From Flavobacteriales bacterium (lineage in GTDB: Bacteria > Bacteroidota > Bacteroidia > Flavobacteriales_F > PHOS-HE28), in contig JAEUSW010000090.1 of NCBI GenBank assembly GCA_016788285.1, forward strand, positions 1 through 33,527: a DNA stretch of 33,527 nt. Reading direction: 5' to 3'. Positions 1 to 33,527 of the stretch are shown one piece after another. The translations under genes were made by a program, and so were the position numbers. Under the pieces are notes generated by a model. That model saw only the letters and a list, made by a program, of their open reading frames with translations, was not told the DNA's origin and did no database searches. Position 1 is the stretch's first letter; each line of letters begins with the position of its first letter.

Positions 1-75
1 GAGGAGCACGGCAGCGAGCAGCAACAGCATCACCGCTTCCAGCAGCACTCCTGTGTTCTTCCGTCGTGTGCGCAT
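1..75 (-). CDS. N-terminal fragment of an unidentified secreted or membrane protein (runs off the left edge)
   Basis: An ATG at 73-75 on the minus strand opens a frame that stays open for 25 codons to the edge of the window. The visible peptide begins MRTRRKNTGV and continues into a run of Leu, Val and Ala. That is a basic N-terminus followed by a hydrophobic segment, as in a signal peptide or signal anchor. The start lies only two bases after the TGA (78-80) of the preceding gene, the same spacing as between that gene and the one before it. This argues for a translationally coupled third gene in the secreted-protein operon. No function can be assigned from 25 residues. Confidence 0.6.
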   Translation of the reverse strand, partial: MRTRRKNTGVLLEAVMLLLLAAVLL

Positions 76-77
76 GT

Positions 78-827
78 TCACTGCTTCGTTAGGCGTTGTT
101 CGCATGCCCATCCCTGGCCCTGGCATCGCAACACATAGCAACCCGGCGGCAGATCGCGGAGATCCATGATGCCGCTCACCGCGACCATGACCGGTGCGAG
201 CACCACGCGCCCTGTTCCATCCATGACCTCCACCAGTGCTGGTCCTGCTGCCGCGGGTAGCGTTACGGTAAGCGAACCATCCGTGGGATTCGGAAAGACG
301 ATCACGTGTGCATCGGCCATCTCCTCGCCTTCCGGCAATGCAGTGGCCAACGCTTCAAGCACTTCACCCGTGCGGTCCGCACCGTTCATGGAGAGGTAGT
401 AGTCGCCGTTGTGCGCGGCCGACCAGTCGTCGTTCACCAGTTCCAGTGATCCCGCGCCCGTGTGCGAGATGGTGAGCACCACCACCTCTTCACCAGCGGA
501 CCAGGGTGCACCGATCTCATCGAGCGTGGTGAAGCCGAAGCCGGCGAAGACCTGGTGGAAGAGGCTCTCCTCTTCATGGGCTTCGCCGCTGGGGGATACC
601 GTTGCGCCACAGCCCGGATCGGCCTGCACCGTCAGGATCTCCACGCTCCCATCAGCCGGCCAGCGCAGGGTGAAGGCCACGCTGCTGAACACACCGTGGT
701 GGTCGTTCTGTGGCACCAGCACCACATGGGTCTCCGTAGGCGAGGTGTGCCGCAACCGGATATCGACCAGGGTCTGGGCGTTGAGCGCTGCGGGCAGCAG
801 TACGAGGGGGAACAATGCGCGGAGCAT
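78..827 (-). CDS. T9SS type A sorting-domain protein with a possibly cohesin-like N-terminal domain
   Basis: This 249-aa protein has a signal peptide (about residues 1-17, ending in LNAQ). A beta-rich domain follows at roughly 18-150, with the pattern VAFTLRWPADGSVEILTV and later EEVVVLTISHTGAGSLELV. The C-terminal ~75 residues start with VFPNPTDGSLTV and end in DLPPGCYVLRC...RLTKQ, the classic type A sorting domain that directs cargo to the type IX secretion system. The middle domain resembles cohesin or Ig-like folds in its hydrophobic pattern (inference only). The gene starts two bases after the stop of the 482-aa dockerin-like gene and is followed two bases later by another start. The order suggests that the partner protein is made together with this surface-exposed one. 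Confidence 0.8.
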   Translation of the reverse strand: MLRALFPLVLLPAALNAQTLVDIRLRHTSPTETHVVLVPQNDHHGVFSSVAFTLRWPADGSVEILTVQADPGCGATVSPSGEAHEEESLFHQVFAGFGFTTLDEIGAPWSAGEEVVVLTISHTGAGSLELVNDDWSAAHNGDYYLSMNGADRTGEVLEALATALPEGEEMADAHVIVFPNPTDGSLTVTLPAAAGPALVEVMDGTGRVVLAPVMVAVSGIMDLRDLPPGCYVLRCQGQGWACEQRLTKQ

Positions 828-829
828 GA

Positions 830-2278
830 TCAGGGGAGTTGTTCGGTGAGCGTGTTGGTGGGAACGGAACCGCCGATGTTGCTGAGGATGGGATCGCGAT
901 CATTGGCCGATCCCGTGTACTTGGTGGAGCCATCCATGTTCACATCGGTAAGCGCGTATCCGGTGATCACGTTGGTGGGCACGGAGCCGCCGATCGCCGA
1001 GAGGATCGGGTCCCGATCGTTGTTGCTCCCGGTGTACTTCAGCATGGTATCGCGCAGCACGTTGCCGCTCCAGAGGGTCATTACGCCGTTGTTGCTCTTG
1101 CGGGCGTTCACCCCGTAGGTGGCCGTGCCGGGCTGTGTGAGATCCAGGTTGGTGACGGCACCGCTCAGTGCGACGGGGGCTGCGGACATGCAGCCGAAGT
1201 GGTTGCGGTGGCGTATGGCCACGTAGTAAGTACCGGCCGGTGCAGGGATGCGCAACGCGGAGATGCCATCAAGCTCCACCACATCGCCATCGCGTTGTAG
1301 CAACGCTGCTTTCGTCATCACACGCTGGGTGGCATCAACGCTGGAATGCAGATCAACGAGCACCCAATCCACGATCGCATTGCCGCCGGTGATCGTGAGC
1401 ACGGATGCCTGTATCGGTGGCCAGGCATAACTGCTCATGGGAACACCCAGGGCGGTGTACGGCTCCGCGAGCGGGATCAGGTTGTTCGCACGAAGGCCGT
1501 CGCCCATCATGCCGGTGCCGCTCACATAGGGACCATCGAGGAAGACGCGCGGGGCGATCAGCACGCCGGGTTCCTGCGCCAGCACCCAATGGCGGTTGGT
1601 CGCTGCGAAGCTCACCGTGCCCGTGACCTGTCGCTGCCCGGTCTGGATCTGGTTCGCGGCCAGGTTGTTCCAGGTGCCCAGGAACCATTGTCTGGCCTGC
1701 ATGGCCGTGGTCCCAGCGGCTGCATCCTCGCTTGTTCCATGGTTGAACACGACGGTGGCATCCATCAACTGCGAGCTGCTGAGCGACCAGAACCGATCGG
1801 CCATGAGCGCGCTGCCTTCGCTCCCGTTGATCTGCGTATTGCCGACCAGGAAGGGCGCAGGTGTGTTGTTGCTGGCACTGGCGTACGTGGCGGTGGAAAC
1901 ATCACGCGTGCCGGCGAACGCGCTTGTTGGCGTGATCACCAAAGGGATCGCCTGCGCTGAGCCGTTCACGAACGGTATGGAGTAGGTGGCCGCCTGGTTC
2001 ATGTTCCACACCACACCACTGCCGGTCCCGGTGTACTCGTTCACGATCCCGCCGCTGGTCACGTTGAATGCGGCCGTGGAAGGGTTGTTCATGCGCAACA
2101 GCCCGTTCAACCAGATGCGGCTGGCGGCATTCGAGATGATCACGCTCCCGGAGCACTCAAGCGTGCTGCCGCTGTTCACCTTGATGGACCGATCGCCGAG
2201 GTTGATGTTCAACTGTGCTCCCGATGATCCGGGGAGCAGGTACAGCGGCAGGAGGAACGGAAGCACGGATGGACGCAT
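830..2278 (-). CDS. Secreted protein with duplicated dockerin-like (EF-hand-type) C-terminal repeat
   Basis: I chose the ATG at 2278 (482 aa) because it places MRPSVLPFLLPLYLL directly at the N-terminus as a signal peptide. The longer open frame to 2335 would put 19 unlikely residues before it. The first ~230 residues are Ser, Thr and Asn rich and beta-like. A module from about 240 carries the motifs ARVFLDGPY, AIVDWVLVDL and AIRHRNHFGCM, which I recognise from large secreted proteins of Flavobacteriales. The tail holds two copies of KYTGSxNDRDPIL-IGGSVPTN, the second preceded by DVNMDG, a DxNxDG calcium-loop signature as in dockerins. It ends at EQLP with no T9SS sorting domain. It lies just downstream of a direct repeat that could be the LytTR operator and is coupled to the T9SS protein next to it. 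Confidence 0.75.
   Translation of the reverse strand: MRPSVLPFLLPLYLLPGSSGAQLNINLGDRSIKVNSGSTLECSGSVIISNAASRIWLNGLLRMNNPSTAAFNVTSGGIVNEYTGTGSGVVWNMNQAATYSIPFVNGSAQAIPLVITPTSAFAGTRDVSTATYASASNNTPAPFLVGNTQINGSEGSALMADRFWSLSSSQLMDATVVFNHGTSEDAAAGTTAMQARQWFLGTWNNLAANQIQTGQRQVTGTVSFAATNRHWVLAQEPGVLIAPRVFLDGPYVSGTGMMGDGLRANNLIPLAEPYTALGVPMSSYAWPPIQASVLTITGGNAIVDWVLVDLHSSVDATQRVMTKAALLQRDGDVVELDGISALRIPAPAGTYYVAIRHRNHFGCMSAAPVALSGAVTNLDLTQPGTATYGVNARKSNNGVMTLWSGNVLRDTMLKYTGSNNDRDPILSAIGGSVPTNVITGYALTDVNMDGSTKYTGSANDRDPILSNIGGSVPTNTLTEQLP
854..1039 (-). repeat. Tandem 23-codon repeat inside the dockerin-like gene (copies 854-922 and 971-1039)
   Basis: Two closely similar 69-bp units, 117 bp apart, encode KYTGSxNDRDPILSxIGG followed by SVPTN. 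The protein sequence is conserved while many third positions differ, which points to an old duplication kept by selection. The 16 residues between the copies include DVNMDG. Confidence 0.8.
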
Positions 2279-2374: not shown

Positions 2375-3121
2375 CTACTTCCCGAGGCGCTTCATCAGCT
2401 CCTCCTTCTTGCGCCGGCTCACGTCCAGTGTGGTCCCATCGCTCATCACCACCTGTCCGCCCTCGCCCTTGATGTAGCGTGCGATGTGATCCATGCTCAC
2501 CAGGTGGCCGTGATGCACGCGCACGAAGCCACTGCCATCGAGCAGCTCTTCGAACTCGCCCAGGGGGCGCGTGGCCACCAGTTCACTTCCGCCTACCAGA
2601 TGGAAGATGGTGAAATAGCGTTCCGCTTCGCACCAGATGATGTCGCTGAGCTTCACCCGTACGAACCCGTTCTGCGCGGGCACACTGATGCTGCTCACCT
2701 GTGCGCCCTGCCGTGTGGACTCCACGAGCTGTTCGATGCGACCATCACCGGCCGGTCCCGTGCGCATCTCCACCACCCGTGCGATGGCCTCGCGTAACTG
2801 GTCCACATCGATGGGCTTCAGCAGATAGTCCACGGCGGCGAACTTGATCGCCTTGATCGCATAATGATCGTGCGCCGTTGTGAACACCACGGCGAAATCG
2901 GGCCTGCCCACACGCCGCAGGAGGTCGAAGCCGCTTTCGCCCGGCATCTCCACATCCAGGAACACGAGCTGTGGCCGGTGCGTGGCGATGGCGGCAAGAC
3001 CTTCCTCCACGTTGCGGGCCTGCCCCACCAGCTTCACGCTCGCGGCGCAATACTGCTCGAGCATGAAACCGAGCTTTTCCCGCGCGTTCGCTTCGTCGTC
3101 GATGAGGATCGCGTTCAGCAT
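2375..3121 (-). CDS. LytTR-family response regulator
   Basis: This 248-aa protein has a receiver domain (about 1-120). The acidic pair is D8-D9, the phospho-acceptor D56 lies in VFLDVEMPG, T82 in VVFTTAHDHY, and the conserved K102 in YLLKPID. A LytTR DNA-binding domain follows (about 143-246), containing RVKLSDIIWCEA and FVRVHHGHLVSMDHI. It starts 13 bases after the kinase gene and is surely its partner: LytS-type kinases phosphorylate LytTR regulators. LytTR proteins bind direct repeats, and one lies immediately past its stop codon. Its likely target is therefore the secreted-protein operon downstream (inference). Confidence 0.93.
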   Translation of the reverse strand: MLNAILIDDEANAREKLGFMLEQYCAASVKLVGQARNVEEGLAAIATHRPQLVFLDVEMPGESGFDLLRRVGRPDFAVVFTTAHDHYAIKAIKFAAVDYLLKPIDVDQLREAIARVVEMRTGPAGDGRIEQLVESTRQGAQVSSISVPAQNGFVRVKLSDIIWCEAERYFTIFHLVGGSELVATRPLGEFEELLDGSGFVRVHHGHLVSMDHIARYIKGEGGQVVMSDGTTLDVSRRKKEELMKRLGK

Positions 3122-3134
3122 GGGGTCCGGGGCA

Positions 3135-6100
3135 TCATCCCTCGTCGAGTGAAAGCGTGATCACCACCCGTGTTCCGGAAGCCGCACCGGTGGCATCGCG
3201 AAGGTCGATGATCTCCACGCGGCTGTGCAAGCCGGCGTTCTTGCGCAGCAGGTCCAGCCGATCCTCCGTGAGCCGGGTGGCCTTGCTCTGGTGATCGCTG
3301 CTGCGTTTCGCGTTGATGCGCGCACTGGCCTCGCGCCCCACGCCGTCATCCTCCACAGTTATGACAAGGTCGTCGCCATGGAGCCTGAAGTCCACCTGCA
3401 GACGGCCGGGAGCGTGCTTGTGCTGCAGACCGTGCCAGATGGCGTTCTCCACGAAGGGTTGCACGAGCATTGGCGGCAGTTGCACGTCGCGATCGAGCAG
3501 CCGCGGATCGGTGGACAGGTCGAACGTGAAGGGTTGATCGAAACGCAGCGATTCCAGCTCCATGTAATACCCGAGCATCTCCACCTCCTTCTTCAGCGGC
3601 ACGGTCACCTGGTCCGTTCGGTGCAGGATCAGGCGGATGAGCTTGGCGAAGCGGTTGAGGTAACGCGAAGCCTCCTCGCTGCGCTGCATGATGATGAAGC
3701 GATCGATGCTGTTGAGGCTGTTGAACACGAAATGCGGGTCCATCTGGGCACTGAGCGCCTGCAGGCGGAGCTCGTTCATGGTGCGTGCCATGGTCTCCTC
3801 CTTCCGTTCGCGTTCGCGGATCCAGTTCAAGCGCAGGCGGAAGCTCACCATGATCAGGCCGGCAACGGCGAGCGCGAAGAGCACCCGTGCCCACAAGGTC
3901 TGCCACCACGGCGGCAGGATCACGAAGCGCATCCTTCCTTCGGGGCTCCAGTTCCCCCACTGGTCCTGCACCTTCATGCGCAAGGTGTATTCACCCGGTG
4001 CCACATTGTTGAACCGTGCGGACCCTGACGTGCTCGACACCCAGTCGCGGGTGGCGCCTTCCAGCATATAGCTGTAGGCCGGGATGGCGCGGGGCAGCGA
4101 CGCGATGCCGAATCGCAGGTCGAGCTGATCATCCACGTGGGAGAATTCCAGCTCATCACCTGGAAGCCACGACCGACGCTGGTTGTACACGAACACTTCG
4201 CGCAGATCCGGCGCACGTGGTGGTGAAGGCAGATCGAACGCGAGCGGGTCGAAACGCACCACCGTGGTCACCGTGCTGAAGAGGAAGTCATCGCTCGCCC
4301 TGGCCAGTGAGGCACTTTCGAAATCCTGGAAAGGACCACCCGCATCCACCGGCATGGCGATGAACCGTTCACGTTCCGGATCGAAGCAGGCCAGTTGATT
4401 GGACGTGCCCACCCACACGCGCCCACGAGCGTCCAATTGCATGGACTGGATCAGCGCACCGCGGAGGCCGTGCGCAAAACCGAACACCTGGGTATGGCCC
4501 GTGGCCGGTTCGAAACGCACCAGGCCGATATCGCGCACACCGAGCCAGAGGTGGCCGCTGGCATCCTCGCGAATGCTCAGCACGATGGTGCCGATCGTGT
4601 CGTGGGACAAGCCCTTCAGTTGTACCCGCGCGAACTCCCCGCTCCGCTGATCGTACCTCACAAGGCCATTGCCGCCATGACCGATCCACAGGTCACCGTT
4701 TCGCGTAACGGTGCCGCACACCAGGATCCCCTCCGGAAGCGAACGGGGATCGGCGCCGTCCGGAGCATGAACCGTGCAGCTTCCGGTACCGGGATCGATG
4801 CGCACCAGCCCCCTGCCCCAGGTACCAGCCCAGATCGCGCCCTGCTCGCCTCTGGCCATCCAGGCATAGGTGATGTTGCGCATATGCTGTGCATCCGCCG
4901 GCATTGCGGTGAACTTCCGCGCGCGCCGTGTCCGTTCATCGTATGTCCAGATACCATGGCGTGTGGCCAGCCAGAGCCCTTCATCCGAGCTGCACATGTC
5001 CAGGATGGCATTGCTTTCCTTGTCCACGGCATCGAGCAGCACGCGATCCTTCCTGCCGGTGCTGAGGTCCGCGTGCAGCAAACCCAGTTCGGTCCCCATC
5101 CAGATGCCGCCATCAAGCGCAGGTCGCATGCACGTGAGGTTGACGTCCGTGCGGTCCTGGACCAGGTCTCCCATGCGCAGCAGGGAATAAGTGAACCCGC
5201 CGTCGCTGAGCACGCTCACCCCGCCCTTCGTTGCGAACCATGTTCGCCCTTCACGGTCGATCGCCACATCGTTGATGAAGTTGCTGGCGATGGCGCCGGG
5301 GTCGTGCGGGTCGTTAACAACACGGACGACGGAGGAATCGGTCGGATCGAAGCGAAGCGGAATGAAATCCTCGCCCATCAACCAGATGAGGCCGTGCGCG
5401 TCAATGTGCATGCTTGGCCAACCCAGCAGGGTGATCTCCGGATGTCCGGGCAGGTGGGCCCACGAACGGATGGACCTGTCACCAGGTGAATACCGCCGGA
5501 TGCCTCTGCTCGCATTGCTCGTCATCCAGGTGTTTCCATTGCGGTCCGTGACCATCTGCTGCTCCTCGATCCCTTGCAGAAGCGGGTTCGCCCCCCGATC
5601 GGATCCGGAATGATGGAAGCGGCCTTCCCGCGCGTTGAAATACATGAGTTTCCGTTCCACGCTGTACGCCCAGAAACCCGTGCCGCCACTATCCGTACGG
5701 ACGATGTGACCGCCACGCAGGGGCCTGCGTCCGTCCACCACGAGGCTGTCGAACCGCTCACTCTGGGGATCGAACCGATAGAACCCGCCCTGGCCCGCGC
5801 AATAGATCATGCCGTCCGCGGTCGCACACAACGTGGGGACCGCATCGAAGAAGCCATCGCGCCTGGTCACCCAGGGCAGCGGCCAGTGCTCCCATGCACG
5901 CGAACGCGGATCGAGCTTGTACAGCCCGTGCGTGGTGCCGAGCCAGATCTGTCCGGTGCTATCGCGTGCAATGGCTTCCACATCCGGTTGCGGCCGATCC
6001 ACCTCCAACGGGACGGTGGCCAGCACCCCACCATCAAACACTGCAAGACCTTGAGAGGTCCCGATCCACAGTGCGCCACGCTCATCGAAGTGGAGGCACC

Positions 6101-6227
6101 GCGCATCTCGGTACGGGAGGCCATCGCGCTCCGTGAGGTTGCGAAAGAGCAGCGGCGTGGCCCGCCCGGATCGCGCAGGAAGCACCACGGGCAGGGCACA
6201 AAAAAGGAACAGGGCCGCTAAGCGCAC
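3135..6227 (-). CDS. Propeller / Y_Y_Y sensor histidine kinase (LytS-type)
   Basis: This 1030-aa kinase starts with GTG; an in-frame TGA lies seven codons upstream, so no earlier ATG is possible. A signal peptide (about 1-18) precedes a dozen or so repeats of the type GxLWIGTxxGL (about 25-660). They would form two beta-propellers in the periplasm. A Y_Y_Y domain follows (about 700-765, with YSYMLEGATRDWV and PGEYTLRMKV), then one transmembrane helix at about 770-793. The cytoplasmic part is a His_kinase domain with H832 in QMDPHFVFNSLNS and an ATPase domain with PFVENAIWHGL and VEDDGVGRE. It has no fused receiver or AraC domain, so it is not a hybrid HTCS regulator. It signals through the LytTR regulator just downstream. 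The stimulus is unknown. Confidence 0.92.
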   Translation of the reverse strand: MRLAALFLFCALPVVLPARSGRATPLLFRNLTERDGLPYRDARCLHFDERGALWIGTSQGLAVFDGGVLATVPLEVDRPQPDVEAIARDSTGQIWLGTTHGLYKLDPRSRAWEHWPLPWVTRRDGFFDAVPTLCATADGMIYCAGQGGFYRFDPQSERFDSLVVDGRRPLRGGHIVRTDSGGTGFWAYSVERKLMYFNAREGRFHHSGSDRGANPLLQGIEEQQMVTDRNGNTWMTSNASRGIRRYSPGDRSIRSWAHLPGHPEITLLGWPSMHIDAHGLIWLMGEDFIPLRFDPTDSSVVRVVNDPHDPGAIASNFINDVAIDREGRTWFATKGGVSVLSDGGFTYSLLRMGDLVQDRTDVNLTCMRPALDGGIWMGTELGLLHADLSTGRKDRVLLDAVDKESNAILDMCSSDEGLWLATRHGIWTYDERTRRARKFTAMPADAQHMRNITYAWMARGEQGAIWAGTWGRGLVRIDPGTGSCTVHAPDGADPRSLPEGILVCGTVTRNGDLWIGHGGNGLVRYDQRSGEFARVQLKGLSHDTIGTIVLSIREDASGHLWLGVRDIGLVRFEPATGHTQVFGFAHGLRGALIQSMQLDARGRVWVGTSNQLACFDPERERFIAMPVDAGGPFQDFESASLARASDDFLFSTVTTVVRFDPLAFDLPSPPRAPDLREVFVYNQRRSWLPGDELEFSHVDDQLDLRFGIASLPRAIPAYSYMLEGATRDWVSSTSGSARFNNVAPGEYTLRMKVQDQWGNWSPEGRMRFVILPPWWQTLWARVLFALAVAGLIMVSFRLRLNWIRERERKEETMARTMNELRLQALSAQMDPHFVFNSLNSIDRFIIMQRSEEASRYLNRFAKLIRLILHRTDQVTVPLKKEVEMLGYYMELESLRFDQPFTFDLSTDPRLLDRDVQLPPMLVQPFVENAIWHGLQHKHAPGRLQVDFRLHGDDLVITVEDDGVGREASARINAKRSSDHQSKATRLTEDRLDLLRKNAGLHSRVEIIDLRDATGAASGTRVVITLSLDEG

Positions 6228-28121: not shown

Positions 28122-31100
28122 CTACTGGGTGAGGGTGAAGCGCAGGCTGAGGCCGAAGTTGCTGTTGGAGCTGGGGAAGGAGGTGGAGATCACCGGCTTG
28201 TTCACCACGCGCTCGTAGAACAGGCGCACGTTGAGCCGCTGGCTGATCACGTAGTCCGCCGAGGCCTTGATGGAGGTGATGTTCTGACCGGCCGTCACCT
28301 GGTTCTGGCCCTCCTGCATCTTGCGGATGACGGTGTTGTTCTGCCGGATGCTCACGTCCACCCGCAGGTTGAGGTCGCTCTTGGGCCGGTTGCCGCCGAT
28401 GGTGACGGGGAACTTCACGTTCTTGAAGCGGTAGCCCGTGCCGAACACGTACTCCTTGCCCCGCACCTCGGTCACCTGGTAGTTGCTGATGCTCAGGCTC
28501 AGGTTGCGGTCGCGGTTGTACTCGAACTTGGCCAGCAGGCTGTTCTGCAGGGTGACGTCGGCCCCCAACAGCGGCCGCATCACCTCGGTGATGGTGACCA
28601 CCCCGATCTGCCGCTCGGGGATGTAGTTGAAGGCGGCGTCCAGTTCACCGGCGCCCTCCACGAACAGGAGGTTCGTCTGGTAGTTGCCGATGTTGAAGGT
28701 GCTGCGGTAGCTGTGCTTCACGGTGAACGTGCGGAACCACTTGCTGAACGGCTTCATCCGCGACAGCCCGTCGTAGGTGACGTCCCAGTTCGGCAGCGGG
28801 ATCAACTTGAAGGGGTTGGTGGTCACCTTGCTCGCGCTGCGCCCGGTGTAGGCGGCCAGGAAGGCCGGGATCACCACGTCCTGGTTGGTGGGGCCATAGC
28901 CCGAGTAATAGCCGCTGTCGGGCACGAACACACTGCCCTCCCGCTCCTGGCCCAGGCGCTCGCTGATGACGCCCCGGTTGTCCAGCATCTGCTGGAAGAT
29001 CGGGTTCACGAAGTTGTCGTCGTCCACGCTGAAGGCCGTGCCCCAGGTGATGGTGCTGACGCTGAAGTTGCCGAACTCGCGCGGGCTGTCGTTCACGTAG
29101 GTGCCCAGCGAGTCGTTCCACCGGAAGAAGCTGCTGCGGTTCTCGCTGTACACCCGGTTGGCGCTGAGCTCGATGCGCATGCTCTTGAACGGCTCCAGCG
29201 ACAGGCGCGCGTTGATGTTCTCGGTGCGCGTCTGGGTGTGCGGCGTGAAGATGGAGGGGGTCTGCACCAGCCATCCCTGCCCGGCGGCGTAGGAGGCATA
29301 ATCGCGCACCACGGCATCGCTGACGTCGTGGTTCTGCTGGCCCAGGATGAAGCCGAAGCCCGGTGCCGTGAAGTCGTCCATCCCGATCACGTTGGTCTTG
29401 CGCGCATAGCCCGGCAGCAGCATCCCCGAGTTCTGGCTGTACGTGATGTTGCCGTTCCGGATGCTCATCAGCACCCGCGCGAAGGCGTCCAGCGGCTTGA
29501 ACCCGCCCTCCTTGTCGTCCTTGCCCTTCCCCTTGTCCTTCTCCTTGTCCTTCTCCTCCTCCTTGGGCTTGTCGCCCGCCTTGGCCTTGTTGCTCTGGCT
29601 GCGGTTGCTCGTGCGGCCCTTGTCGTTCACCTTCTTGAGGTACTTCGACTTGTTGTAGAGGCTCACGAAGTTCAGCTGACCGTTGATGCTGATGTTCTGC
29701 GAGTTCTGGATCACCGCCCCCAGGGTGTCCTGCGTGAAGGGCGCCCGGTCCCATTGGTAGCCGGCCGCGTACGCCGCGTTGGAGGTGATCCAGTCGGTGA
29801 GGGGAAGCTTGTCGAAGGGCAACGTGTAGGTCACGTTCACCGTGTGGTCGTAGCCGGTGGTCTCGCCCCATTGGCTGAGGCTGGTGAGCACACTGTCCTT
29901 CCACACCTCGTACTCGCCCTTCACCTTGGGATCGACCCGGCCGGGCGGTTCGCCGAGGATGGCGTTGTTGTTGGCCGTGAAGTCGACCTTGAGGCTGCGG
30001 GTGATCTCGTAGCGGAAGCCGTACTGGCTGTTCCAGTTGAAGTTCTTGTTGTACGTGGGGCGCGGGGGCAGCGAGGCGATGTCCGGGTTGGCGCGGATCA
30101 GCCGCTCGTTGTAGCCGCGGTCGATCGAGCTGCGCAGGCTGAGCTGCTTGAAGCCCAGGTTGAAGTTGAACTCCTTGAACAGCTTCAGCCACTTGCTCTT
30201 GTTGATGAGACTGATGTTGGCCAGCGGTTTCACCTCCCTCGGCTTGGGGTTGTGCACGTAGGCGAGCGCTCCGCGGTGCGTCACCGTGTTGTCGAACTCG
30301 GTGTTCACGTCGTGGAACTCCTGGTCGGCGTAGCTGTACGTGAGCGAGAGGTTCTCCACGTCCCAGAAATGCTCCTTCTTGCCGGCCGTGCGGTCCTTGC
30401 GGACGTTGGTGAGGTTGATGCTGCGCCTTCGCGTGTAGGTGCGCACCTGCTTGAGCCGTTCCTTGCGCTCGTCCGGCGTCAGGTTGCGCGTGGCATCATC
30501 CCACTCGATGTCGGGGTTCAAGGGGTCGAACTGCGGGTTGCTCACCTGCTCGCTGTAGCCCACGAACACGGGCACCTTCACGCCGCTCTCCTCGGGCAGG
30601 AACTTGCCCATCTCCAGGTTGGCCGCGAGGTCGACGCCGTACTTGGTCTCGCGCTGGCGCTCGCTCACGCGCTTGTCGATGCTGCCCCAGAAGGGGGTGC
30701 TGTAGTTGCCGGCCACGCTCAGGGTGCCCAGGTCGGCCAGGGTGGTGTTCACCCGGCCGATGGCCGCCCAGCCGCCGCGCTGGTCGAAGTCGGTGAGCCG
30801 CAGTTCGTTCACCCACACCTCCACGCACTTGCTCAGCCCGTCGTCCACCCCCCAGGGATTGGCCTCCACCCCGTCCTTCTTGGGGTTGCGGATGCCGATC
30901 ATCACCGTGCGCATCTGGCTCAGGTTGGGGTTGCCCTTCACCACGATGCGGCGGTCGCCTTCGAACTGGATGTAGCGCTGGTTGGTGGGGAACCCGTCGC
31001 GGTTGCGCTCGATCTTCACGTCGTTCAGCCTGGCGAACTCGATCACCATGTTGTTGGCCTCGGGCCACACGCTGTTGGGATCGTTGTTGCCGAAGGCCGA

Positions 31101-33527
31101 GGGCACCACCGGCACCTCGTACTCGTAGTAGTTCTGATCGAAGTCGTTGCCCAACCGCACGAACACGCTCACATCGCCGTACTCCACCGGGTTGCCAGGA
31201 TCCGAGCTCTCCGCGTGGATGAACATGCGCATCTTCTTGTAGCTGCGGATGTCGAACTGCACGTTGCGGAAGGCGGCCCGGGCGTCACCGTCGCGCAGGT
31301 TGCAGGTGCGCAGCTGAAGGCTCTGCTCATTGAGGTTGCGCAGGTTGGCGCTGGCCACGTCCACCTCCTGCAGGATGCCCGGGGGCACCACGTAGTTGAT
31401 GGGCACCCGGTTGCCGTTCTCCTCCACGTTCACCGCGGCCACCTCGAAGGTGGTGGGGTCGGGGTCCGTACCGATGCCCTCGCCCGGCGTCTCCAGGGAG
31501 AAGAAGTACTTGCGCCATTCGCCGCGGATGAACTCCAGCCGGGCGAAGCGCAGCACGGCCTCCTGCGGCCAGCCGTGCATCACCATGCGCATGAAGCGGA
31601 TGCTCCGGAAGTCCTGGATGCCGTTCACCACGCGGTCCGGCTGGCGGATGGGCACCTTGAACTGGTACCAGTACACCTGCTTGCCGCTGATGGGGTGCGT
31701 GCCCAGCACGCGGTCGGTGACGTAGCCGGTGCCCACCTGCAGCTCGTTGGGCCGCATGTTCACCCGGTACTGGAAATAGCTCTCGTTCTCCGCCAGGTTC
31801 TGGTCCTGGTTGATGTCCTCGGTGGTGGGCAGGGTGGTCTGCTGCGTGGGGTAGTCCTCCGGGCTGTCCACGTCGGTGATGCTGTTTCCCTCCGGACCGT
31901 TGAACTCCTTGTAGCGGAAGAGCATGTCGGCCAGCGGGTTGCCGTCGTAGTCGTCGCCCCGGAAGAAGCGGTAGTTGTCGGCGGAGGGGTCGGCGTTGAT
32001 GCGTGCGAGGGCGGACGCGTTCGTCACCACGCTGGCCACCGGCTGCAGGTAGTCCGTCTGGTAGAACGTCTGCTCGGTGCGACCCTCCACGTCGGTCTGC
32101 TGGTCGCTCAATCCGTCGAGGCCCACGTCCTGGTACCGGTTGCTGTTGTCCTCGGTGATGGCGAAGGCGTTCACCACGCTCTGGGTGGTGGCCACCACGC
32201 CCCAGTTGGTCTCGCCCGTGGTGTAGCTCAGGTCGGTGCCGTCGGGCGGGAGGCCGTTCTCGAAGCTCTTGCGGCTGTCCCGCAGCACGTCCTCGCTGAT
32301 GTTGCCCAGGTCGATGTACAGGTCGCCCCCCGTGCTGTTCTGGCTGTCCTCGTTGCTGCCCGCACCAGTGCCCTCGGCGAAGGGGTCCATCATCCAGAAC
32401 TGGATCAGCTCGATGTTGCTGGCCTCGAAGTCCGTGGTGGTGATCCGCCGCGTGATGCCCGCCCAGCTGTCCGCAGGGTCCAGCAGGAAGCCGTCCTGGT
32501 CCAGACCGTCCACGGTGTAGTTGTAGGGGCCGCGCTCGCGGGGGTAGTACGCCAGGTCCAGCACGGGGATGTTGGCCGGGGCTCCTGCCTGCAACTGCCG
32601 GTTGGGGAACACTTCCAGCTCCAGCACCTCGCGCTGCCGGTGGTCCGCCTGCATGTCGCCGGTGATGTTGGGCGGCGTGAGGTTGTTGTTGCGGAAGAAG
32701 AGCGGGTCGATCACGTACCAGGCCAGCTTGGCACGCCGGAAGCCGGTCCGCAGGTCGTTGATGAAGTCGCCTTCCGGAAAGAGGTCCGGGATGCCCTGCG
32801 GGGTGGCGGCATGGAACCAGAGGCTCTGCTGGCGCAGGTCGATGGTGCTCACGCTGCCCTCGAAGTCGTCGATGTAACTGGTGCCGGCGTTGCCGATGGC
32901 CCGGCTGTGCCCGGGGATCAGGTAGGCCGCTTCGGCGCTCGCGTTCACCGTGCTGATCTCCTTGGTGGCGAAGAAGGGCAGCTTGTCCACCAGCGTGGTG
33001 ATCAGGTTGCTCTCCGTCCGCCAGTTGGCATCGAGGCCCACGATGGTGTTGCTGATGGGCTCGTCGCCCACGTTCACCTTCTGCGTCAGCGGCCGCTCAT
33101 AGAGGTTCATCACCGTGCCGCCGATCGTCAGGTCCTTGTTCACCCGGAAGTCGAGGCGCGCGCCGGCCAGGGTCTTCGTCTGGATGCTGAAGAGGGAGTT
33201 GCTCTCCAGGCTGATGTTGATCGGTGTGCCGCTCTCCAGGATGCCCTGGTTGATGATCTTCACCCGGCCCAGGTTGTAGTCCACGGTGTAGTCCTGGTTC
33301 TCCACCAGGCGCACCCCGCCGGCGGTCACCACCACGCTGCCCTGCGGGATGTTCACCGAGTTGAGGCTGATGACGTCGCTGCTGGCGCTGCGGTAGCTGC
33401 CCTTGAGGCGGAAGCGGTTGAGCTCGGGCTGGTTCTGCGCGGCCACCTTGGTGCTGTCGTACAGCACCTGGAACACGATCTGTTGCCGGATGGCCAAAGG
33501 CTGCTCGGGGTCCAGGGCCTGGTCCAG
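28122..33527 (-). CDS. sprA: SprA, type IX secretion translocon (C-terminal ~1800 codons, runs off the right edge)
   Basis: The frame stays open to the window edge: codons LDQALDPEQP precede the TTG at 33497, so no start is in view. SprA proteins are about 2300-2500 aa, so the N-terminal quarter is missing. The visible part has SprA hallmarks: an early IDDFEGSVSTIDLR block, WYQFKVPIRQPDRVVNGIQ, FRSIRFMRMVMHGW, and many amphipathic strands to the end at SNSNFGLSLRFTLTQ. SprA forms the large outer-membrane barrel through which T9SS cargo passes. A Lys/Glu/Asp-rich insert (about 29505-29595) follows KYLKKVNDKGRTSNRSQSNK and would be a disordered loop. Cargo with T9SS tails is encoded in the left half of this window. 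Confidence 0.96.
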   Translation of the reverse strand: MDQALDPEQPLAIRQQIVFQVLYDSTKVAAQNQPELNRFRLKGSYRSASSDVISLNSVNIPQGSVVVTAGGVRLVENQDYTVDYNLGRVKIINQGILESGTPINISLESNSLFSIQTKTLAGARLDFRVNKDLTIGGTVMNLYERPLTQKVNVGDEPISNTIVGLDANWRTESNLITTLVDKLPFFATKEISTVNASAEAAYLIPGHSRAIGNAGTSYIDDFEGSVSTIDLRQQSLWFHAATPQGIPDLFPEGDFINDLRTGFRRAKLAWYVIDPLFFRNNNLTPPNITGDMQADHRQREVLELEVFPNRQLQAGAPANIPVLDLAYYPRERGPYNYTVDGLDQDGFLLDPADSWAGITRRITTTDFEASNIELIQFWMMDPFAEGTGAGSNEDSQNSTGGDLYIDLGNISEDVLRDSRKSFENGLPPDGTDLSYTTGETNWGVVATTQSVVNAFAITEDNSNRYQDVGLDGLSDQQTDVEGRTEQTFYQTDYLQPVASVVTNASALARINADPSADNYRFFRGDDYDGNPLADMLFRYKEFNGPEGNSITDVDSPEDYPTQQTTLPTTEDINQDQNLAENESYFQYRVNMRPNELQVGTGYVTDRVLGTHPISGKQVYWYQFKVPIRQPDRVVNGIQDFRSIRFMRMVMHGWPQEAVLRFARLEFIRGEWRKYFFSLETPGEGIGTDPDPTTFEVAAVNVEENGNRVPINYVVPPGILQEVDVASANLRNLNEQSLQLRTCNLRDGDARAAFRNVQFDIRSYKKMRMFIHAESSDPGNPVEYGDVSVFVRLGNDFDQNYYEYEVPVVPSAFGNNDPNSVWPEANNMVIEFARLNDVKIERNRDGFPTNQRYIQFEGDRRIVVKGNPNLSQMRTVMIGIRNPKKDGVEANPWGVDDGLSKCVEVWVNELRLTDFDQRGGWAAIGRVNTTLADLGTLSVAGNYSTPFWGSIDKRVSERQRETKYGVDLAANLEMGKFLPEESGVKVPVFVGYSEQVSNPQFDPLNPDIEWDDATRNLTPDERKERLKQVRTYTRRRSINLTNVRKDRTAGKKEHFWDVENLSLTYSYADQEFHDVNTEFDNTVTHRGALAYVHNPKPREVKPLANISLINKSKWLKLFKEFNFNLGFKQLSLRSSIDRGYNERLIRANPDIASLPPRPTYNKNFNWNSQYGFRYEITRSLKVDFTANNNAILGEPPGRVDPKVKGEYEVWKDSVLTSLSQWGETTGYDHTVNVTYTLPFDKLPLTDWITSNAAYAAGYQWDRAPFTQDTLGAVIQNSQNISINGQLNFVSLYNKSKYLKKVNDKGRTSNRSQSNKAKAGDKPKEEEKDKEKDKGKGKDDKEGGFKPLDAFARVLMSIRNGNITYSQNSGMLLPGYARKTNVIGMDDFTAPGFGFILGQQNHDVSDAVVRDYASYAAGQGWLVQTPSIFTPHTQTRTENINARLSLEPFKSMRIELSANRVYSENRSSFFRWNDSLGTYVNDSPREFGNFSVSTITWGTAFSVDDDNFVNPIFQQMLDNRGVISERLGQEREGSVFVPDSGYYSGYGPTNQDVVIPAFLAAYTGRSASKVTTNPFKLIPLPNWDVTYDGLSRMKPFSKWFRTFTVKHSYRSTFNIGNYQTNLLFVEGAGELDAAFNYIPERQIGVVTITEVMRPLLGADVTLQNSLLAKFEYNRDRNLSLSISNYQVTEVRGKEYVFGTGYRFKNVKFPVTIGGNRPKSDLNLRVDVSIRQNNTVIRKMQEGQNQVTAGQNITSIKASADYVISQRLNVRLFYERVVNKPVISTSFPSSNSNFGLSLRFTLTQ

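Follow-up and report, generated by a model that had tools for sequence, protein, structure and literature searches.

The window, by which we mean the whole stretch of 33,527 nucleotides that was analysed, opens on the minus strand with a gene for a secreted protein (gene A) and a gene for a protein sorted by the type IX secretion system (T9SS; gene B), whose parts are collected in Table 1. Two nucleotides separate the stop of gene A from the start of gene B, and another two separate the stop of gene B from the start of the next open reading frame (ORF). The initial annotation had described three genes coupled in this way: both gaps are indeed 2 nt, but the third member is a doubtful hydrophobic ORF of 32 aa, and it was rejected as a part of the system. 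Directly downstream of the locus (L328 281-2456 (+), G000:C160), three tandem secreted proteins of ~250 aa have the common start SGVAIGxxxPxxxPSAALDVQSTTQGMLxPRM and are possibly fibre-tip-like. Directly upstream of gene A, a LytTR response regulator stands beside a sensor with two-component-propeller, Y_Y_Y and histidine-kinase parts (window 2375-6227 (-)); the regulator gene is 96 nt off and uncoupled, and it is possible that the regulator and the propeller-type sensor regulate the gene A/gene B pair. The window also carries sprA, the gene for the T9SS translocon pore (28131-33500 (-), TIGR04189 1874 bits), which reaches the contig end and has its 5' part on contig C216; as read from the sequence, a T9SS is present in this genome.

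Table 1. Features of the gene A/gene B locus (positions in the window; residues in the encoded protein).
Feature	Position	Strand	Basis
Gene A, secreted protein ending in a dockerin-like tail module, 482 aa	830..2278	-	ORF and translation
Variable passenger region of gene A, residues ~22-237	1568..2215	-	no Pfam match; not in own-genome matches
C-terminal tail module of gene A, residues 239-482: beta-domain and two putative calcium-loop repeats	833..1564	-	own-genome search, paralogue alignment
Beta-domain ahead of the repeats in the tail module, residues ~239-400	1079..1564	-	paralogue alignment; beta strands predicted by AF2 for a homologous tail
Dockerin-like repeat 1, residues 406-431, loop degenerate at its first residues, followed by KYTGSNNDRDPIL	986..1063	-	sequence, paralogue alignment, model loop-helix
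Dockerin-like repeat 2, residues 445-470, DVNMDGSTKYTGSANDRDPILSNIGG	869..946	-	sequence, paralogue alignment, model loop-helix
Gene B, anchor protein sorted by the T9SS, 249 aa	78..827	-	ORF, Pfam and NCBIfam scans
Domain of gene B predicted to be cohesin-like, residues 18-165	333..776	-	AF2 and Foldseek
C-terminal sorting domain of gene B (T9SS type A), matched at residues 177-238	81..299	-	TIGR04183, PF18962
Start of 32-aa hydrophobic ORF, 2 nt past gene B stop, completed on contig C160 (doubtful gene)	1..75	-

The secreted protein and its T9SS-sorted neighbour

The translation of gene A begins with a signal-peptide-like N-terminus, is without a match in Pfam or NCBIfam at E<1, and was found to have no T9SS tail in a scan with TIGR04183. 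At its C-terminus lies a near-identical pair of repeats (KYTGSNNDRDPILSAIGGSVPTN and KYTGSANDRDPILSNIGGSVPTN) with a spacing of 39 residues, each containing KYTGxxNDRDPIL, with DVNMDG ahead of the second. These repeats close a tail module of ~245 aa, in which a beta-rich part of ~150 aa precedes them (alignment of 28 copies), and in nearly all copies besides that of the window the own-genome matches to gene A span residues ~238-482 only. In an AlphaFold2 (AF2) model of a homologous tail, each loop is predicted to be followed by a helix (model residues 182-189 and 222-228). The repeats of gene A have an insert before the last loop position and a degenerate first loop; they show the ligand pattern DxNxDG and may bind calcium. 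The initial annotation had noted duplicated repeats of the DxNxDG type, with an insert following the calcium loop, on a protein devoid of a T9SS tail; all of this holds, and the insert is conserved, NDRD being invariant in both repeats of 28 paralogues.

Gene B encodes one unclassified domain followed by a T9SS type A tail, which scored 28.6 bits against TIGR04183 (above the cut-off of 23) and 25.2 bits against PF18962 (just under the cut-off of 27). The unclassified domain was modelled by AF2 with 50 relatives (pLDDT 94.0, pTM 0.87), and a Foldseek search of the PDB with this model returned cohesins as all of the best 24 matches (E 3.7e-5 to 4.9e-4, prob 1.00), with moderate TM-scores of about 0.5. 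The matched cohesins come from Clostridium, Acetivibrio, Pseudobacteroides, Archaeoglobus and others, and a second model, that of a tail joined to an anchor (see below), matches cohesins as well. Judged by these models, the domain has a cohesin-type beta-sandwich fold, as had been supposed for gene B from its strand pattern, and kinship of the domain with cohesins had been named beforehand as a check on the proposed pairing. Among its closest folds are the non-cellulosomal cohesins of Clostridium perfringens (2jh2) and Archaeoglobus (2xdh), which differ from it in that identity is ~8-15% and in that they belong to other organisms and other carrier proteins. The Cohesin family PF00963 gave no match for gene B at E<1 and none for ten partner proteins at E<0.5, and phmmer and profile searches of the gene A and gene B proteins against PDB sequences returned nothing useful except T9SS tails.

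Tail copies, anchor proteins and true dockerins

Within the same genome, the tail module was found at 42 places with gene A as query and at 43 with a profile. The repeats of gene A are therefore not a product of chance, the whole module being present in ~43 copies. In 29 of 31 complete cases the module forms the exact C-terminus, and it falls one or two residues short of it in the other two. The passengers upstream of the tail are unrelated to one another; in ten tail proteins scanned they include a lysyl oxidase with MAM, a metallophosphoesterase, a P-domain, a DUF5122 propeller, laminin-G and three glucose/sorbosone dehydrogenases, two of these with PKD and one of the two with PA14. No glycoside hydrolase was found among the ten scanned passengers, and a T9SS tail was absent from all tail proteins scanned. 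Inside the lysyl-oxidase/MAM tail protein (L062 6297-9779 (-), G000:C122), residues 708-757 also resemble Dockerin_1 (E 7.6e-4, below the cut-off). Among named records, those closest to the tail come almost entirely from uncultured Flavobacteriales or Bacteroidetes genomes, and isolate names suggest that the lineage is tied to wastewater-type samples.

The N-domain of gene B is present in five proteins of the genome. With ~43 tails against few anchors, the locus is thus part of a many-to-few system and not one isolated pair, and most of the tail genes have no adjoining anchor gene. The anchor proteins are varied in build. In one own-genome anchor-domain protein (L095 1966-2667 (+), G000:C220) a Pfam type I dockerin (28.4 bits) replaces the T9SS tail, and a protein of this type could chain anchors together. 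A frame of 398 aa (L329 3130-3984 (-), G046:C125) carries two tandem cohesin-like domains and then a T9SS-like tail, and on its sequence may be called scaffoldin-like, a candidate minimal scaffoldin. Some anchor proteins are 1,450-2,000 aa long (L184 10214-16099 (+), L183 2-4489 (-), L187 2-4366 (-)); at L068 the anchor domain is followed by Cys-rich CxGxxGGxxLPGTxCxDGNxxTGND repeats, which might serve as a stalk. At L165, L175 and L176, start domains of the VxVxNQxxSGDxLFFDVYL type are similar in the tail proteins and in their T9SS-tailed neighbours; this similarity suggests that single proteins combine a cohesin-like with a dockerin-like part and assemble in chains.

PF00404 (Dockerin type I) has no sequence match in gene A in the Pfam scan, and Foldseek did not find a dockerin for the tail among the 50 matches listed. 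A homologous tail on the same upstream domain (L171), however, reaches 32.5 bits with PF00404 (cut-off 22.9); a further one (L174), at 20.2 bits, stays just under that cut-off. At one and the same position on this beta-domain we find the canonical DxNxDGxVNxxD loop, KYTGxxNDRD, RMTGLNANNNDYL and longer inserts, as if a single scaffold had carried an evolving series of calcium loops. Such a series supports the dockerin reading, though the repeats of the window fail the Pfam test. The earlier idea that the repeat may represent a separate, dockerin-like family has thus been borne out, since Pfam does not recognise it, yet a homologous tail carries a Pfam dockerin. The proteins of genes A and B match neither Pfam model and are dockerin-like and cohesin-like by fold, position and partnership.

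Co-occurrence, adjacency and predicted docking

Tail and anchor keep company well beyond the window. Within the genus, the tail occurs in 45 of 45 genomes (4-48 copies each) and the anchor domain in 44 of 45 (0-6 copies), the exception being a genome that is 82% complete. Across 345 genomes of the class, the tail is present in 44 and the anchor domain in 17 (16 without one weak match), and all 17 anchor-positive genomes fall within the 44 that have the tail; at the genus level this co-occurrence has p=4e-4 with the weak match counted. The genes also adjoin each other: a full examination of the anchor genes in 21 genomes showed 28 of the 67 to be immediate same-strand neighbours of a tail gene, where 0.7 would be expected, and the formal probability of this adjacency is too small because the genomes share ancestry. 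More than half of the 67 anchor genes have no adjoining tail gene. The adjacency is met repeatedly and takes several forms, one of them a conserved cluster in which anchor genes flank tail genes, and in many loci the two kinds of gene are tightly spaced on one strand. A free-standing anchor gene, conserved in about 20 genomes, lies among housekeeping-type genes, which is fitting for a general anchor that would serve scattered tail genes.

Outside the genus, a T9SS-tailed gene follows the tail gene, or run of tail genes, on the same strand in 14 of 16 informative cases, compared with 20 of 119 ORFs overall. Ten such neighbours each carry PF18962 and an unclassified N-domain, and the neighbours are consistently proteins of 300-750 aa of this build, not assorted enzymes. 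Their N-domains can be recognised as kin of the anchor domain in G023, G340 and G327 and, on iteration, in G266, with G151 as a borderline case; we claim kinship for G023, G340, G327 and G266. The expectation that the tail and anchor families would be neighbours elsewhere has accordingly been confirmed in other Bacteroidota families.

Several genomes hold a tail gene and an anchor gene in the same frame, parted only by stops and a short spacer. We folded the tail-linker-anchor read-through of one of them (G008, 455 aa) from an input of 12 natural in-frame pairs (G008 included) and 42 tail rows. In the resulting AF2 model both domains are mostly above pLDDT 90 and the linker is disordered (33-47), and the pTM is 0.82, a value from one linked-chain model without a mismatched-pair control. 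By the definition of pTM, such a score is reached only if the mean tail-anchor error does not exceed about 3.7 A, and two domains placed independently of each other would give about 0.54-0.6. The difference between 0.82 and 0.54-0.6 therefore implies, at the level of this model, a defined interface between tail and anchor domain, in line with the complex that the initial annotation had proposed.

Taken together, these observations make it quite probable in our view that the tail of gene A docks on the cohesin-like domain of gene B, as a plug in a socket that is anchored by the T9SS. With its type A tail, gene B would be taken across the outer membrane by the type IX system and would expose its cohesin-like domain at the cell surface. 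Gene A and about 42 other proteins would then dock on the anchor domain with their beta-domain and their two calcium-loop-and-helix repeats, presumably with calcium-dependent affinity, and the docked tail would hold its passenger at the surface. In this way a few anchors may serve many tailed passengers, both secreted enzymes and adhesion-type proteins. The tailed proteins may leave the cell piggyback on the anchor or take a different way out.

A more specific version of this binding, which overlaps with surface display and differs from it in the export step, is that tailed proteins are bound by the anchor while still in the periplasm and are carried by it through SprA in the folded state, to be kept or released afterwards. 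The tailed proteins bear no T9SS tail and yet look extracellular, and anchor and tail genes sit close together on one strand in many loci. Since the very wide SprA pore lets the T9SS move folded proteins (PMC9251779), export of a pre-formed complex is conceivable; a precedent for T9SS piggyback export was not found in the literature searched, and we regard this version as somewhat less likely than not.

The 245-aa tail could instead be a new C-terminal sorting domain (CTD) that is read directly by the T9SS, with the cohesin-like proteins as unrelated neighbours. The tail is C-terminal, multi-copy and attached to unrelated passengers in genomes with a T9SS, as sorting domains are, and most tail genes of the window's genome stand apart from any anchor gene. 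The last ~80 residues of the tail, however, consist of two loop-helix repeats, whereas known CTDs are compact Ig-like 3+4 beta-sandwiches (PMC11285876). A sorting domain fails to predict the adjacency to, and the exact co-occurrence with, a T9SS-tailed protein of cohesin fold, and likewise the modelled interface and the Pfam dockerins found in place of the repeats. We consider it improbable. Least of all do we favour the notion that these are ordinary surface proteins whose genes cluster as those of secreted proteins do, with an incidental cohesin fold and incidental calcium loops on a domain that binds, for instance, glycans: beta-sandwich domains are common, the cohesin and dockerin families give no sequence match and an orthologous anchor gene stands free amid housekeeping-type genes, but the uniform size and build of the T9SS-tailed neighbours, the unbroken run of cohesins among the first 24 fold matches and the pTM argument make it very unlikely.

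Known systems and meaning for the Bacteroidota

Docking of gene A-type tails on gene B-type anchors would be akin to the cohesin-dockerin pairs of cellulosomes (type I/II, Firmicutes, with X-module-dockerin dyads). The likenesses are that the anchor domain is predicted to fold as a cohesin, that the tail ends in two symmetric putative calcium-loop repeats of the DxNxDG type, that a beta-domain directly upstream of them sits where the X-module does, and that there are many tails for few anchors, with one tandem-cohesin protein (L329). In contrast to the cellulosomal pairs, those described here lack a PF00963 or PF00404 match and have a loop insert (KYTGxxND) with a short helix; the anchors carry one cohesin-like domain (two in one case), are sorted by the T9SS and belong to a Gram-negative phylum, and glycoside hydrolases are missing from the ten scanned passengers. 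A cellulosome, in the sense of a multi-cohesin scaffoldin with polysaccharide-degrading enzymes, is thus not what we find.

A closer parallel is Ca. Stygibacter (Cloacimonadota), which has dockerin-tailed secreted enzymes and a cohesin protein with a T9SS-type CTD (PMC8542988), a scaffoldin proposed to be anchored to the organism's own surface (PMC8542988). There, one scaffoldin of 3,755 aa bears tandem cohesins and carbohydrate-binding domains and is recognised by InterPro (PMC8542988), whereas here we find mostly short anchors, unrecognised families and dozens of tails, in the Bacteroidota. Gene B also resembles T9SS type A cargo (TIGR04183/PF18962) in having the tail, but ordinary cargo proteins bear a function of their own, whereas gene B looks like a docking platform for proteins that lack the T9SS tail. 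In earlier accounts the Bacteroidota are said to be without cohesins and dockerins (PMC5831590), and cellulosome-type proteins are said to be missing in cellulolytic soil species of the phylum (PMC6247017); single Bacteroidota dockerins found by HMM have been listed (PMC10266427).

In light of these accounts, the broader proposition would be that beta-domain and dockerin-like tails on T9SS-sorted cohesin-like anchors form a widespread, undescribed surface-assembly system of the Bacteroidota, in which the loop variants may set the specificity for the anchor and piggyback exit through SprA is possible; we hold the chances of this proposition to be about even. If the pair binds as predicted, the Bacteroidota have their own, diverged version of cohesin-dockerin pairing. 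Such a version would account for the surface retention of many secreted proteins that lack a T9SS tail, and large nameless families would gain a function. The diversity of loops on one scaffold would supply protein engineering with new candidate binding pairs, and T9SS export of complexes would become a directly testable question.
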